Positions 3,195 through 11,874 of a DNA stretch of 21,394 nt are shown here, piece by piece. The notes below the pieces were generated by a model that saw nothing but the letters and a program-made list of their open reading frames with translations, was not told where the DNA came from and did no database searches. The DNA is from a virus, in IMG/VR virus record IMGVR_UViG_3300034019_000106, positions 1-21,394 of that record; one strand, given 5' to 3'. Numbering within the stretch: the stretch's first letter is position 1; the number at the start of each line of letters is the position of its first letter. A program made the translations under genes and the position numbers.

Positions 3195-4109
3195 ATGGCT
3201 GCTATTTCACGCGCACAACTACTTAAAGAACTGCTCCCCGGTCTGAACGCCCTGTTCGGCCTTGAGTATGATCGTTATGGCGAAGAATATAAGGAACTCT
3301 TTGAGACCGAAAGTTCTGAGCGTTCCTTTGAAGAAGAGCAGAAGCTGTCCGGTTTCGGCGCAGCTCCTGTAAAGAACGAAGGCTCCGCTATCGCATACGA
3401 TAACGCTCAGGAAGCATGGTCTACCCGATACACCCACGAGACTATCGCTCTGGGCTTCTCCCTCACCGAAGAAGCTATTGAAGATAACCTGTACGACTCA
3501 CTGTCTGCTCGTTACACCAAAGCGCTTGCTCGTGCGATGGCCTACACTAAGGAAATCAAAGGCGCATCCATTCTGAACAACGGCTTTAACGCGAACTACA
3601 AAGGTGGTGACGGTAAAGAACTGTTCAGTAACGCGCACCCGCTGACCTACGGTGCAACCATCTCCAACATCCCTTCTACCGCTGCTGACCTCAACGAAAC
3701 CTCGCTTGAGAATGCAGTCATCCAGATTTCCCTCTGGACTGACGAACGCGGTCTGCTCATCGCAGCAAAGCCCAAGAAACTGATCCTACCTCCTGCATTG
3801 CAGTTCGTAGCTACTCGTTTGCTTGAAACTGAACTGCGTGTCGGCACCACCGATAACGATGTCAACGCTCTGAAGAACAACGGTGCAATTCCGGGTGGCT
3901 TCACGATCAACCACTTCCTGACCGATCCGAATGCTTGGTTCCTGACGACCGACGTTCCTAACGGCCTGAAGCACTTCGTTCGCGCTCCGCTGAAAACTTC
4001 AATGGACGCAGACTTCGATACCGGCAATGCTCGCTACAAGGCTCGTGAGCGTTATAGCTTCGGTTGGAGTGACTACCTCGGCGTATTCGGTTCTACCGGA
4101 TCAAGCTGA
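3195..4109 (+). CDS. Major capsid protein, HK97 fold (Mu gpT-like)
   Basis: 304 aa. The N-terminus is helical and charged (residues about 1-50). Then come a region with Tyr-Asp-Asn-Ala-Gln-Glu-Ala-Trp and the long helix SLTEEAIEDNLYDSLSARYT, followed by ALARAMAYTKEIKGASILNN, where Ala-Asn-rich segments lead to a Gly-rich loop and the strands PKKLILPPAL. This pattern is typical of the Mu-like major head subunit group. AAGGAG lies 8 bases upstream of the ATG. Three hairpins directly follow the stop, consistent with an abundant, stabilised transcript. It assembles as hexamers and pentamers around the scaffold at 1144-2058. The size fits this group. Confidence 0.85.
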   Translation: MAAISRAQLLKELLPGLNALFGLEYDRYGEEYKELFETESSERSFEEEQKLSGFGAAPVKNEGSAIAYDNAQEAWSTRYTHETIALGFSLTEEAIEDNLYDSLSARYTKALARAMAYTKEIKGASILNNGFNANYKGGDGKELFSNAHPLTYGATISNIPSTAADLNETSLENAVIQISLWTDERGLLIAAKPKKLILPPALQFVATRLLETELRVGTTDNDVNALKNNGAIPGGFTINHFLTDPNAWFLTTDVPNGLKHFVRAPLKTSMDADFDTGNARYKARERYSFGWSDYLGVFGSTGSS

Positions 4110-4152: not shown

Positions 4153-4182
4153 GAAGGGGCCATTCGGCCCCTTTTCTTTTTT
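4153..4182 (+). terminator. Rho-independent terminator after the head operon
   Basis: AAGGGGCC (4154-4161), loop ATTC and GGCCCCTT (4166-4173) form an 8-bp stem, extended by a G-U pair. The stem runs into TTTTCTTTTTT. This closes the transcript carrying the capsid gene and lies only 3 bases before the next promoter's -35 box. Confidence 0.9.
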
Positions 4183-4185
4183 CTG

Positions 4186-4214
4186 TTGACACTCCCCAAT
4201 AATCTTAGTATAAG
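4186..4214 (+). promoter_or_regulatory. Sigma-70 promoter for the gene at 4259
   Basis: A perfect -35 box TTGACA (4186-4191), a 17-base spacer and -10 box TATAAG (4209-4214, 5 of 6 consensus bases). Initiation is expected near 4221, leaving a leader of about 40 bases with GAGGG before the ATG at 4259. A second promoter at 5420-5448 shares the sequence TAGTATAAGAG, one variable base, then GTTAAAT. Confidence 0.85.
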
Positions 4215-4219
4215 AGTGT

Positions 4220-4237
4220 TAAATTTGGCCTATTTTA
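4220..4237 (+). promoter_or_regulatory. Imperfect dyad at the start site, possible operator
   Basis: TAAATTTGG followed by CCTATTTTA is an inverted repeat with 7 of 9 positions matching. It begins five bases after the -10 box, so it covers the expected +1. The second promoter has a dyad at the identical offset (5454-5469), which suggests a shared operator or 5'-end mRNA element. Confidence 0.4.
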
Positions 4238-4258
4238 TAGATTTTACATGAGGGCAAC

Positions 4259-5386
4259 ATGGCAAAAACATTAGCCAGCCGAGGTGGAAAACGGTGCTTT
4301 GCTGAAGGGGAAAGCGTAAAAGCCACGGGAAGAACTAAGAAAACTTCTGGTAGGGGGCTTGGGCCTAGAGGCCGCGCTGTGTCTTTCAAACCCCTAGACG
4401 ATGCTAAGAAAACTCCCGGCAAAGCCCTTGTGCCTAGGGGCAGGTACGATGTAACAACCACTGGCGATGCGAAGAAATCTCCCGGCAAAGCACTTGTACG
4501 CAGGGCTAGCTCCGATGTAACAACCACTGGCGATGCGAAGAAATCTCCCGGCAAAGCGCTTGTACCTAGGGGCAGGTACGGTGTAAGAACCACTGGCGAT
4601 GCGGCGAAAGCTACAGGCAAAGACCTTGCACGCAGAGGTAGCTCTGATGTAGCCCGTCCGGGGCGTCCTAGCATAGATGTTGACCTCAGACGGACTCGGA
4701 TAGGGCAGGAAAAAGTGATTGGCTCTGGGGCTGGAGAAAACATAGACCGCACCAAAATTTCTAGGCAGGCTCGTGCAACGTCGGAAAAGCCCGCTGGCTC
4801 TGGGGCGTCCCGTATAGGAAGAGCGGCATCTCGCACTCTTGGCGGGCTGGGGCTTATGGCCTACAGTTCTGATGTTGGGGCAGGGTCGGACAAGCCTCAA
4901 TACTATCCGGGGGAAGGGCTGAAAGCAAAGGAAAAGGCTAAGGAGCGAGATACATCAAGCAATGATTACTCATCTCAGTTAAAAAAGTACAGAGATTCTG
5001 CGCCCGCCTCAGCATCTTCATCCCCAAAAGCTTCCGCCGCATCATCTTCATCTTCGTCTTCGTCTTCACCAGCAAAACCTACTGCCAGCACGCCTAGGAA
5101 GGCCGCTGAGAAACCCTCTGCGAGAGCCTCGGCATCTACTTCCACTAAGCCTGTACGCCGTCAGGTAAGTAGTAAGCGGGCTAGTGCCGCAGAAGATAAG
5201 TTCATGTCTGAGCTAAAAGCTTCTGCGAGCAAAATGAAGTCCGCTATTTCCGACATGGCAGAAAAAACAGGCAAAATGAAAGAGAAAACTACCGCTTTGT
5301 CTCGTAGCTTCAAAAAGGGCGGTTCTGTCAAAAGTTGTTGCGATGGTCGCGCTCAGCGCGGTCGCACAAAAGGGAAGATTAGGTGA
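4259..5386 (+). CDS. Basic repeat protein with KGG/TKGK C-terminal tag
   Basis: 375 aa, strongly basic and mostly low complexity. Residues about 25-135 are tandem 22-residue repeats built on Lys-Lys-x-Pro-Gly-Lys-Ala-Leu-Val; the last four units alternate between two subtypes. Residues about 136-235 are basic with a short Gly/Leu patch. Residues about 240-320 are a Ser/Ala/Pro/Lys linker including a run of nine serines. A Lys/Met-rich helix follows, then the C-terminal peptide KKGGSVKSCCDG and RAQRGRTKGKIR. The gene has its own promoter and terminator (a moron-like layout). Composition resembles histone H1-like or protamine-like proteins, so a DNA-binding or internal virion role is possible. 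The C-terminal tag is shared with 6515-6817 and 6827-7915. I do not recognise a family. Confidence 0.8.
   Translation: MAKTLASRGGKRCFAEGESVKATGRTKKTSGRGLGPRGRAVSFKPLDDAKKTPGKALVPRGRYDVTTTGDAKKSPGKALVRRASSDVTTTGDAKKSPGKALVPRGRYGVRTTGDAAKATGKDLARRGSSDVARPGRPSIDVDLRRTRIGQEKVIGSGAGENIDRTKISRQARATSEKPAGSGASRIGRAASRTLGGLGLMAYSSDVGAGSDKPQYYPGEGLKAKEKAKERDTSSNDYSSQLKKYRDSAPASASSSPKASAASSSSSSSSSPAKPTASTPRKAAEKPSARASASTSTKPVRRQVSSKRASAAEDKFMSELKASASKMKSAISDMAEKTGKMKEKTTALSRSFKKGGSVKSCCDGRAQRGRTKGKIR
4400..4663 (+). repeat. Four 66-bp tandem repeats in the basic protein gene
   Basis: In-frame units at 4400-4465, 4466-4531, 4532-4597 and 4598-4663, each encoding 22 residues. Units 1 and 3 contain PRGRY while units 2 and 4 contain a Ser-Ser-Asp version, so the array is also a 132-bp dimer repeated twice. 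A more diverged copy precedes it at about residues 25-47. Confidence 0.85.
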
Positions 5387-5392
5387 TTAGGG

Positions 5393-5418
5393 AAAGGGGC
5401 TTCGGCCCCTTTCTTTTT
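5393..5418 (+). terminator. Rho-independent terminator with TTCG loop
   Basis: AAAGGGGC (5393-5400), loop TTCG and GCCCCTTT (5405-5412) form a perfect 8-bp stem closed by the very stable UUCG loop, followed by CTTTTT. It ends the single-gene cassette. The T tract is only one base away from the next -35 box. Confidence 0.92.
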
Positions 5419-5419
5419 G

Positions 5420-5448
5420 TTGACATGTGCTAAAAACCCTAGTATAAG
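5420..5448 (+). promoter_or_regulatory. Sigma-70 promoter for the downstream structural operon
   Basis: TTGACA (5420-5425), a 17-base spacer and TATAAG (5443-5448). Same boxes, spacer length and flanking core (TAGTATAAGAG) as the promoter at 4186-4214, though the spacer bases differ. It would drive 5538 onward. No further terminator is visible to the end of the window. Confidence 0.85.
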
Positions 5449-5453
5449 AGAGT

Positions 5454-5475
5454 TAAATCCGGGGATTTATTTTTT
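5454..5475 (+). promoter_or_regulatory. Dyad plus T run at the 5' end of the transcript
   Basis: TAAATC (5454-5459), CGGG and GATTTA (5464-5469) form a 6-bp inverted repeat followed by six T. It begins five bases after the -10 box, the same offset as the dyad at 4220. It could be an operator, a 5' stabilising hairpin or a weak attenuator. A smaller inverted repeat, TGCC/GGCA, lies further along the leader near 5487-5496. Confidence 0.4.
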
Positions 5476-5537
5476 GCCTAATCGACTGCCCCGGCAGATT
5501 CGCACACAACGATAGGCGCAAGTGCAAGGATACAAAT

Positions 5538-5978
5538 ATGGCATTCGCTACATTCTCTGGCCCTGTTCGTTGCGGTACTGTTAAAGACGCTCCGGGTGTA
5601 AACACTGGCTGCATTGTTCTTTCTCAGACTGCCGCTCTTGGTCTTACTACCAGCACCCCGTTCATTCTTCCGGCTGGTGCACAGATTCTCAACTTCTACA
5701 TCGACGTTACCACGACGTTCACCACTAGCGCTACGCTGGCTGTTGGCGATGGCACCACTGTTAATAAATACGTAACGGCAATCACCACCCCCGCTGCGGG
5801 TCGTCAGACCAACACTCCTACCGCTGCTCAGATTACTGCTATGTCCAATATCGGTACGACTGATGTGACGGTAACGGTGACTATGGCTGGCACGACTGCG
5901 ACTGCAGGTGCAGGGTTCATCACTGTTGTATACGTACAGCATCTGTCTGATGGCGCACAGGTTCCTCCCTCTGCATAA
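5538..5978 (+). CDS. Beta-rich virion structural protein, unassigned
   Basis: 146 aa, dominated by Thr, Ala, Gly and Val in alternating strands, a composition usual for phage decoration, neck or fibre-base proteins. It has two cysteines near the N-terminus (residues 12 and 25), no signal peptide and no membrane segment. The RBS-like AAGGA lies about 7 bases before the ATG. It is the first gene of the second structural transcript, after a leader of about 80 bases. The role is inferred from composition and context; I do not recognise a named family. Confidence 0.65.
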   Translation: MAFATFSGPVRCGTVKDAPGVNTGCIVLSQTAALGLTTSTPFILPAGAQILNFYIDVTTTFTTSATLAVGDGTTVNKYVTAITTPAAGRQTNTPTAAQITAMSNIGTTDVTVTVTMAGTTATAGAGFITVVYVQHLSDGAQVPPSA

Positions 5979-6515: not shown

Positions 6516-6817
6516 TGACCCGCGCATCCCGTGGTATTTCCAACATCCAAGAACACGCCAGAGGCAACAAGATGAAGAAGAATATGATTAAGAACAAGGA
6601 AAGCGCTAAAGTCGCTATCAAAAAGAAGCGCCCAATGGCCCCCGGTATGGGGGATATGAGTGTAGGCTCCGCTCGCTCAGGCAACCTGAAAAACATTCCG
6701 GGTATGGGTGGTATGAAGGCGGGCATGAAGTCTGGTGGCTCCTGTAAAGGATATGCCAAAGGTGGCTCAGTTGACGGCGTAGCCCACAAAGGCAAGACCA
6801 AAGGCAAAATCTGCTAA
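6515..6817 (+). CDS. Small basic protein with KGG/TKGK C-terminal tag
   Basis: 100 aa, very basic: Lys/Arg-rich and helical for residues 1-42, then a Met/Gly/Pro-rich middle with repeated PGMG and GMGGMK, then [12 protein letters not shown] and [12 protein letters not shown] at the C-terminus. The last 19 residues match the C-terminus of the protein at 4259-5386 (KGGSV, Asp-Gly, Ala, Lys/Arg-Gly, TKGKI), although the rest of the two proteins is unrelated. Translation is coupled to the upstream gene through TAATG. No known family is evident. A nucleic-acid-binding or capsid-associated minor protein is an inference from charge and context. Confidence 0.7.
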
Positions 6818-6826
6818 GAGGTAGAG

Positions 6827-7915
6827 ATGGCAAAGAAAGTAAACAAGCCAAGCGGCGGCCCTCCTACTAAGGTGTATGCCCCGCCTAGAGCTGGCGGCGG
6901 TGCCCCTACTAAGATGTTTGGCCCTAAAGGTGGTGGCCCTAAAGGTGGTGGTGGCGGTGGTGGCCCTAAGCCTGTCAAGCCGACTACGACCACTAAGCCT
7001 GTCAAGCCGACTACGACCACTAAGCCGGTTAAGCCGACTACGACCACTAAGCCTGTCAAGCCGACTACGACCACTAAGCCTGTCAAGCCTGTCAAGCCGA
7101 CTACGACCACTAAGCCTGTCAAGCCTGTCAAGCCTGTCAAGCCGACTACGACCACTAAGCCGGTTAAGCCGACTACGACCACTAAGCCTGTCAAGCCTGT
7201 CAAGCCTGTCAAGCCTGTCAAGCCGACTACGACCACTAAGCCTGTCAAGCCTGTCAAGCCTGTCAAGCCTGTCAAGCCTGTCAAGCCTGTCAAGCCTGTC
7301 AAGCCTGTCAAGCCTGTCAAGCCTGTCAAGCCTGTCAAGCCGGTCAAGCCGGTCAAGCCGGTCAAGCCTGTCAAGCCGACTACGACCACTAAGCCGGTAA
7401 CGCCCGCTCCAGCTCCAGCTCCAGCTCCAGCTCCAGCTCCTGCGCCCGCTCCAGCTCCAGCTCCAGCTCCTGCGCCAGCTCCTAAGCCGGTAACGCCAGC
7501 TCCTGCGCCTACTACACCTGCTAAGCCGGTAACGCCAGCTCCTGCGCCTACTACACCTGCTAAGCCGGTAACGCCTCCTCCTGCTCCACAACCTCCGGTA
7601 GCTCCGCCTAAGCCGGTAACGCCAGCTCCTGCGCCAGCTCCTGCGCCAGCTCCTGCGCCAGCTCCTGCGCCAGCTCCTGCGCCAGCTCCTGCGCCAGCTC
7701 CTGCGCCAGCTCCTGCGCCAGCTCCGGCACCTACAGCGCTTCCACCGCCTCCTGCTGGAGTCAGAGGGATGCACGACTTCGGCGCTCGTCAGCTTCTGAA
7801 GAAAGGCGGTATCGCGGCACTGGGTGGCAACAAGGGAATGGAAAAAGGCAAAGGTGGTAAACCACGCGGTGTTGGCCTAGCCCAGAAGGGTTGGGGCAAA
7901 GGGAAGATGCGGTAA
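6827..7915 (+). CDS. Lys-Pro-Val / Pro-Ala repeat protein with KGK C-terminal tag
   Basis: 362 aa. Residues 1-47 are Gly/Pro/Lys-rich. Residues 48-188 consist of Lys-Pro-Val units interrupted by Lys-Pro-Thr-Thr-Thr-Thr, including 15 Lys-Pro-Val units in a row. Residues 189-302 are Pro-Ala arrays with two 13-residue units. The end (about 303-362) is non-repetitive and basic, finishing [15 protein letters not shown] then WGKGKMR. Such Pro-rich sequence should form an extended polyproline-II rod, like the Lys-Pro and Glu-Pro region of TonB. No signal peptide or membrane segment is present. RBS-like AGAGGT precedes the ATG. The C-terminal tag relates it to 6515-6817 and 4259-5386. The function is unknown; a flexible or rod-like virion appendage or a spacer protein are possibilities. 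Confidence 0.75.
6968..7390 (+). repeat. 9/27-bp tandem repeat array encoding KPV and KPVKPTTTT
   Basis: Contiguous in-frame repeats of AAGCCTGTC (9 bp) and of a 27-bp unit that adds AAGCCGACTACGACCACT. Positions 7238-7372 hold 15 consecutive 9-bp units. A few units carry CCG instead of CCT (for example the three just before 7372), so copies are not fully homogenised. Copy number could change in steps that keep frame. Confidence 0.95.
7403..7732 (+). repeat. Pro-Ala coding repeat arrays (6, 12 and 39 bp units)
   Basis: 7403-7483 is made of GCTCCA and GCTCCTGCGCCA type units. 7484-7561 is two identical 39-bp units encoding [13 protein letters not shown]. 7622-7732 is mostly a 12-bp unit GCTCCTGCGCCA. 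All lengths are multiples of 3. The two outer arrays use different dominant codons, which suggests separate expansion. Confidence 0.9.
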
Positions 7916-11058: not shown

Positions 11059-11874
11059 ATGAGGTACGGGAGCGTCTATATTTTGACTAATCGAATCACC
11101 CATTGTCAGTACGTGGGGCAGACGATCCAGCCTGTAAAAGCTAGATGGCGGGCGCATGTAGCAAACGCAAAAAAACCCAAATTTGACATTAGTAGAGCGA
11201 TTAGCATTTATGGCGAGCGTGCCTTTAGCATAGTGGAAGCCTACATAGCTTTTGACAAAAATGGGCTTGATGCTGCTGAAGTAGCGTTGATAGCGGATTT
11301 GGCCCCCGCTTACAACATGACTAAAGGTGGTGCGGGTAGTCCCATTAGAATAACTCCTTATGAGTTACGCGCAAAGCGCTCTTACGCCGCTAAAAAGCGC
11401 TGGGCTGATCCTAAATGGAGGGCGACCACTATAGCTAAAATGGCCGCTGCTGTCTCTTTAGAGGCTAAGCAGGAGCAAGGCAAAAAGCTGATACAATTCA
11501 AGGGTGGGGTTAAACGTTGGGAAGGGCATGTGAAAAAAGGACGCACGCTAAAGTCTCGTTCTGAAACCGTTAAGAAGTCATGGGGCGATCAGAATGTGCG
11601 GGCCAAGCGGATAGAAGGGATAAAAAAAGCGGTCAGCGATCCAGCGGTTAAGGCTAAATTACTACTGAATTTACAGAAACCACAACCAAAAGAGGCTAGG
11701 GATAGGACGGCTAGGGCAAAATACAAGCCTGTGTACTGCCCAGAACTTCAAGTAACATTTATATCCAGAAAACATGCAGCAGCGCATTTTGGTGTGACTA
11801 GAGAGACTATCCATTGCGCTATAACAAAACCGCATAAAATAAAAGGTCTTTATTCTTTAGTCGGACAGATTTAG
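11059..11874 (+). CDS. GIY-YIG homing endonuclease, free-standing (Seg-like)
   Basis: 271 aa. The N-terminal nuclease domain (about 1-92) has VYILTN (Y7) and QYVGQT (Y18, G20) as the GIY and YIG parts, basic RWRAH (29-33), and the catalytic-type Glu E74 in AAEVALIADL, then YNMTKGG (85-91). The middle (about 100-215) carries repeated Lys-Lys-x-Trp-x-Asp-Pro units of NUMOD3 type that contact DNA. The C-terminal 45 residues (FISRKHAAAHFGVTRETIH) look like a NUMOD1/IENR1 helix-turn-helix. It cuts a specific DNA site and spreads by repair. It sits between structural genes with 2-3 base junctions and no intron features. Its codons favour AAA, ATA and TTA more than its neighbours, consistent with separate acquisition. 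Confidence 0.92.
   Translation: MRYGSVYILTNRITHCQYVGQTIQPVKARWRAHVANAKKPKFDISRAISIYGERAFSIVEAYIAFDKNGLDAAEVALIADLAPAYNMTKGGAGSPIRITPYELRAKRSYAAKKRWADPKWRATTIAKMAAAVSLEAKQEQGKKLIQFKGGVKRWEGHVKKGRTLKSRSETVKKSWGDQNVRAKRIEGIKKAVSDPAVKAKLLLNLQKPQPKEARDRTARAKYKPVYCPELQVTFISRKHAAAHFGVTRETIHCAITKPHKIKGLYSLVGQI

Follow-up and report, generated by a model that had tools for sequence, protein, structure and literature searches.

The window, the whole stretch of 21,394 bases that was analysed, is a fragment of an uncultured virus that gave no match to phage records in a megablast of its full length. Its head region carries the following features.

3195..4109, + strand: major capsid protein gene, 304 aa (PHROG 371 'major head protein', 3e-22; Pfam Phage_capsid_4, 4.5e-14)
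4153..4174, + strand: left terminator, T1, 3' of the capsid gene (terminator scans)
4186..4214, + strand: left promoter, P1, TTGACA-17-TATAAG (promoter scan; its best match is the right-hand unit)
4259..5386, + strand: gene for a 375-aa basic low-complexity protein, apparently relocated (open reading frame, composition, repeats, tag, homologue in relative L001)
5394..5412, + strand: right terminator, T2 (terminator scans)
5420..5448, + strand: right promoter, P2, TTGACA-17-TATAAG, predicted to drive the cement operon (promoter scan; -10 spacing in relatives)
5459..5525, + strand: double-pseudoknot RNA leader, A-B-A'-C-B'-C' (fold search, covariation, covariance model)
5526..5530, + strand: Shine-Dalgarno AAGGA, directly after C' and 7 nt before the start codon
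5538..5978, + strand: cement (head decoration) protein gene, 146 aa
6827..7915, + strand: second accessory slot, with a PVK-repeat protein gene where L001-type phages have the homologue of the 375-aa protein

The capsid protein is 57-70% identical to those of Planktothrix phage Pag-Yong1, the pelagiphages HTVC023P and HTVC027P and the Roseobacter phages CRP-901 and CRP-902. The product of the gene at 5538 shares 31% identity (E 5e-12) with a protein of phage DSL-LC04 that carries the annotation 'cement protein'. Searched alone against the PDB this protein gave no match; a profile of its family matched 7eel_H, 'Cement (decoration) proteins', at E 2e-5, and by this similarity to a solved cement protein it belongs to the same family as the Pam1-type cement proteins (PDB 7eel, which we take to be from phage Pam1).

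Two like terminator-promoter units flank the 375-aa gene. In P1 the TTGACA hexamer (4186-4191) and TATAAG (4209-4214) are separated by 17 nt, and the same spacing separates TTGACA (5420-5425) from TATAAG (5443-5448) in P2. A sequence-only reading of this DNA had described both units, and a strict scan of the whole window, in which a terminator was a perfect stem of at least 6 pairs with a T-run and a promoter at least 10/12, recovered the same coordinates. On the + strand the scan found no terminator or promoter beyond these two of each, and the sole extra hit was a promoter-like site (10/12) on the minus strand at 10618-10591. Thirty mononucleotide shuffles of the window gave a mean of 0.17 promoters at 11/12 or better and no terminators. 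A promoter scan that required T at position 6 of the -10 overlooked both promoters because of that requirement, and its site counts were not above those of shuffles. As the window holds no further strong signals, we infer that its other genes lie in long co-transcribed runs.

Relatives were fetched by capsid protein, taking the best 80 of at least 600 matches together with 13 named phage records; the IMG/VR samples are the best matches to the query and not a random set. The usual order 3' of the capsid stop was capsid, terminator, promoter, leader and cement gene, and by eye a hairpin with a T-run followed the capsid gene in nearly all relatives displayed. In compact relatives (for example L047 6920-6982 and L009 6920-6978) the -35 of the leader promoter seemingly lies within the capsid terminator hairpin.

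In this set the capsid stop and the leader could both be located in 67 relatives, window included. The gap between them was shorter than 150 nt in 51 of the 67 and at least 150 nt in 16, where it ran from 216 to 1742 nt (n=16, window included). The nearest empty relative, L003, has a capsid protein 86% identical to that of the window and a gap of 100 nt. The sequence-only reading had proposed a presence-or-absence comparison, and a clean empty site with both edges located was indeed found in these 51 loci; the opposite case, in which all relatives carry the gene at the same place, did not arise, and the 15 other filled loci hold DNA other than the 375-aa gene.

Genes of the GIY-YIG type occupy the slot in L001, L013 and L076, and also in L004, L012, L019 and L052, whose contigs end early; the slot holds an HNH-type gene in L002, L016 and L056, and also in L015 and L078. 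A small membrane-protein-like gene was observed in L006, and in L002 besides its HNH gene, so that L006 resembles L002 minus the HNH gene. This small gene (L002 7609-7821, L006 6973-7197) is found with or without an HNH gene before it. Other genes fill the slot in L005, L053, L060, L071, L089 and L091, and the slots of L050 and L075 contain no clear gene. The gene names given here for individual loci come from reading the translations, and families were tested in bulk: among 22 slot proteins, the window's included, Pfam returned GIY-YIG for 6, NUMOD3 for 5 and DUF723 for 2, and PHROG returned homing endonuclease phrog_314 for 6, endonuclease VII phrog_1035 for 6 and HNH phrog_559 for 2. The record of Caulobacter phage GB2A annotates a homing endonuclease at this site. 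A further GIY-YIG gene lies elsewhere in the window (11059-11874, Pfam 2.2e-6) and has neither a strong promoter nor a strong terminator to itself.

Judged from these gaps and their contents, the capsid-cement junction is an insertion slot, often with GIY-YIG or HNH endonuclease genes. Homing endonuclease insertion beside capsid or decoration genes is already known, as described in parts of PMC2988022 and PMC10448857, and T4 segD (between genes 23 and 24) and segF (between soc and 56) occupy the same kind of site (PMC2988022, in part). Unlike these seg genes, the 375-aa gene encodes no nuclease domain and comes with a terminator-promoter unit that is probably a duplicate. The slot would sit just upstream of a promoter that restarts transcription, where genes could land without breaking either transcript; if so, the slot is insulated at the level of transcription, and both selfish and resident genes can land in it although it lies inside an essential operon.

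The left and right units are alike at 30/39 promoter positions. Their local alignment scored 40.5, against a best of 20.5 in 2000 shuffles, and the best alignment of the left unit to the units of the 66 other relatives scored 26.5. The left unit is closer to the right unit than to that of any relative, which fits a duplication of the unit with a move of the gene, and the left unit is probably a duplicate of the right, as the sequence-only reading had considered. That reading had also counted the right-hand terminator and promoter as part of a cassette. Here the comparison led elsewhere: we read the right-hand unit as the ancestral, conserved start of the cement operon. It is followed by the structured leader at 5459-5525, which is found across the phage group and had been overlooked.

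The 375-aa protein is basic (84 K+R, 33 D+E) and rich in S, A, K, G and R, with about four imperfect 22-aa repeats near its N-terminus. It matched no Pfam, PHROG or NCBIfam family. Its C-terminus, GGSVKSCCDGRAQRGRTKGKIR, carries the tag GGSVK...DGxAQRGxTKGK. Throughout the group, each phage has several unlike proteins with a C-terminal tag near RADGIAQRGKTRGKMC (29 ORFs), and within the window this tag is found at 5316-5383, 6770-6814 and 7850-7912; it is perhaps a head-targeting or packaging signal. In four contigs that come from other metagenomes the DNA of the gene and both units is 100% identical at all 1349 bases aligned, unlike the capsid gene, which differs at 1-6 positions. In a fifth contig the gene region is 100% identical over 544 bases before the contig ends. 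A peptide-pattern search with the 375-aa protein alone returned the same virus only, in five metagenomes.

We identified one clear diverged relative of this protein, a 283-aa product of L001:4012-4860 (phmmer 6.5e-36, 41% identity over 258 aa), which is 100% identical in four further contigs, L383-L386. Weaker matches to the window's protein in other loci were short tagged proteins (best E 2.6e-4). In L001 and L383-L386 the homologue follows g6515, and the capsid slot is occupied by a GIY-YIG gene; in L001 the homologue lies within the virion operon and has no promoter to itself. The place of the homologue in L001 is a second accessory slot, which holds the PVK-repeat gene (6827-7915) in the window, a GIY-YIG-like gene in L002 and nothing in L006. 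The presence of the homologue there means that the 375-aa gene has moved or been copied between two accessory slots. The length of the PVKPTTTT-repeat protein itself varies among near-identical viruses (362, 377 and 437 aa; window 6827-7915, L083 3502, L085 4085).

On this comparison the 375-aa gene seems to be a resident of the phage that has changed place, not a foreign acquisition. Its change of place could be a move or a copy and may have run in either direction. A virion-operon gene would have entered the slot together with a duplicate of the terminator-promoter unit that lacks the pseudoknot leader, and the 375-aa gene would then be transcribed on its own, free of leader control. The sequence-only reading had instead proposed a moron-like cassette of promoter, gene and terminator, possibly inserted with its regulatory flank. 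Part of that proposal stands, as the promoter and terminator signals are there and relatives lack the gene at this slot, and these are also the features, together with patchy occurrence, that link it to the moron genes of temperate phages (as defined in the abstract of PMC6469090). A moron in the sense of a foreign, dispensable gene is not supported. In contrast to morons, the homologue here is a resident virion-module gene with the shared tag, and we see no sign of lysogeny or acquisition from outside; the GC content of 0.530, against 0.508 for the window, gave no sign of foreign origin, and the left promoter was apparently copied from the resident promoter. We therefore regard a true moron as unlikely.

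The leader that follows P2 consists of helix A (5459-5464) paired with A' (5489-5494), B (5475-5484, with A5481 bulged) paired with B' (5510-5518), and C (5502-5505) paired with C' (5522-5525), so helix C has 4 pairs only. Since B-B' crosses both of the other helices, the two pseudoknots interlock. The fold search covered 95 regions, 10 of which had no fold; 12 were set aside by hand (L004, L012, L015, L035, L044, L052, L063, L088, L095, L097, L098 and L100), and the 73 loci kept correspond to 67 distinct leaders. Some of the hand-excluded regions had scores that were not low (L088 57, L097 46, L100 42.5), L015 scored 39 at its cement gene, and L035 was later matched by the covariance model at E 5.6e-9.

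Dinucleotide shuffles reached the fold score of their own sequence in 2 of 2680 cases. In a MAFFT alignment of the 67 leaders made without structure, 20/21 pairs had changes on both sides. Cells of the alignment paired in 78.1% of cases, compared to 63.7% when shuffled and at most 45.7% when slid, and covariation was 0.477, where shuffling gave 0.248 and sliding no more than 0.192; since the structure was derived from the same rows, the slid control is biased towards the fold. Helix B occurs in 53 distinct versions among the 67 sequences. The linkers are more constant: across 111 distinct cores AC precedes A' in 94, GAC follows A' in 90 and an exact AGA lies between C and B' in 59.

The ends of the leader are closely placed with respect to both promoter and gene. 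In 73/104 distinct relatives a -10 matching 5/6 or better is found 6-11 nt upstream of helix A, compared to 13/490 control windows, and this spacing predicts a transcript start only a few bases from helix A. At the other end the fold stops 6-17 nt before the start codon. Among the 67 leaders the Shine-Dalgarno overlaps C' in 21, starts 0-2 nt after it in 34 and 3-5 nt after it in 10; one leader has no Shine-Dalgarno and in one the contig ends. With the Shine-Dalgarno on or beside C', its position suggests that the ribosome cannot easily bind when C-C' and B-B' are formed.

We found 111 distinct versions of the leader, in freshwater phages, the pelagiphages HTVC023P and HTVC027P, and others. 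In a marine set of 157 loci obtained with the HTVC023P and HTVC027P capsid queries, 99 had no cement match or no capsid stop, and 51 of the 58 with a recognisable cement gene had a fold scoring at least 40 directly before it. A covariance model of helices A and C was used to search 59 sources (551 kb). The match on the window spans 5455-5534 (E 2.6e-10, with the window's sequence within the model), and 37/59 sources matched at the capsid-cement site, 10 of them neither used in the model nor identical to its rows. Elsewhere the model found one place, at E 0.85; 22/59 sources gave no match, including L220 and L254, which the fold search had scored as folds. An independent 17-nt sequence pattern was found at no fewer than 118 viral sites. 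Among the 118 matches listed, 111 have the fold and a start codon and 114 have a capsid gene less than 3 kb upstream; three of the remaining 4 begin near a contig end, and in L338 the capsid gene is about 3.7 kb upstream. In bacterial and archaeal assemblies, matches to a sister pattern numbered 7. Two of them, on contigs binned as SAR86 and Alphaproteobacteria, come with the fold and a capsid gene, and the other 5 lack both. Among the sites located, the leader was found only between capsid and cement genes.

In phage GP4 the MCP and cement protein are present at 540 copies each (PMC9698820, in part). These copy numbers and the profile match to 7eel_H favour translational control of cement synthesis, and we consider it likely, judging from the position of the leader, that it controls how much cement protein is translated and perhaps also stabilises the mRNA. 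The terminator would end capsid transcripts and the promoter restart transcription ahead of the cement gene. The leader, beginning at the predicted transcript start and ending on or beside the cement Shine-Dalgarno, would when folded lock the 5' end and compete with the ribosome, so that cement output would be set at translation and probably also through mRNA stability. Such control would plausibly match a 1:1 need for capsid and cement subunits, a figure that comes from another phage, GP4, and feedback from a head protein may act on the leader. We give a probability of roughly 0.68 to the explanation as a whole, namely a control element at the junction, an insertion slot upstream of it, and a relocated 375-aa gene with a duplicate unit.

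Three other readings of the leader were considered alongside translational control. It is possible, although the odds are against it, that the leader serves mainly to shield the 5' end of an mRNA that is abundant and long-lived, any control of translation being incidental. The short distance from the strong -10 to helix A in 73/104 leaders would leave few unpaired 5' bases, and in T4 the transcript of gene 32, with a pseudoknot at its 5' end, is more stable than any other mRNA of the phage (PMC3014915, in part); a simple hairpin would suffice for protection, however, and interlocked knots whose last helix is on or at the Shine-Dalgarno in 55/67 leaders point to initiation. That the conserved element acts as DNA, as a site of recombination, packaging or replication or as a homing target, we think very improbable. 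The adjoining slot is rich in endonuclease genes, but what is kept is the pairing rather than the sequence, the orientation, promoter and Shine-Dalgarno spacing are fixed, and 51/67 loci carry no insert.

H-type pseudoknot riboswitches such as SAM-II and preQ1-II place a pseudoknot at the Shine-Dalgarno, and in this respect, as in the kept AC, GAC and AGA linkers, our leader is similar. The topology and gene context are different, its helix sequences vary freely, and it precedes a head protein gene in phages of quite different hosts. Rfam covariance models searched over 13 sources at E up to 5 gave no match, riboswitch or other, on any leader; a sub-threshold match to L20_leader in L092 (5349-5487) ends before the leader. 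We give a metabolite riboswitch very little weight.

For the preferred reading, translational control of cement, the closest known system is the leader of T4 gene 32, also a pseudoknot in a phage mRNA leader upstream of a gene whose product is needed in large amounts. The gene 32 element has one pseudoknot, lies about 67 nt ahead of the start codon and is bound by gp32 (PMC3014915, in part), whereas here two interlocked knots lie at the 5' end, stop 6-17 nt before the start and precede another gene; as for a gene 32-type operator, the pseudoknot lies in the leader and is supported by covariation. A 2010 review regarded gene 32 as possibly the sole viral case of autoregulation by a leader pseudoknot (PMC3014915, in part). 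A second phage leader pseudoknot controlling translation would stand beside it if our reading is correct, and the setting of head-protein ratios would become testable. No description of the present leader was found in the literature searched (titles, starts of abstracts, and parts of PMC2864571 and PMC3014915), and the double-pseudoknot leader is apparently undescribed. More tentatively, and with somewhat less than even odds, it may represent a new class of regulatory RNA, a double pseudoknot that clamps the cement Shine-Dalgarno and is bound by cement or capsid protein, making cement production keep step with capsid assembly; some of the phages that carry it would be among the most abundant in lakes and oceans.

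The fold is not universal at this site. It was absent in L088 (where there may be one pseudoknot), in part of L093-L100, and in the marine loci L158, L169, L172, L177 and L179, and its absence from some relatives indicates that the leader is replaceable. By eye, a different pseudoknot is present at the same place in CRP-902 (L093 5480-5540; CRP-901 is near-identical), L172 and L179, which suggests an exchange of one leader fold for a different one. In L136 and L180 helices A and B appear intact by eye and helix C is weak or lost, making these two loci natural partial variants of the leader.
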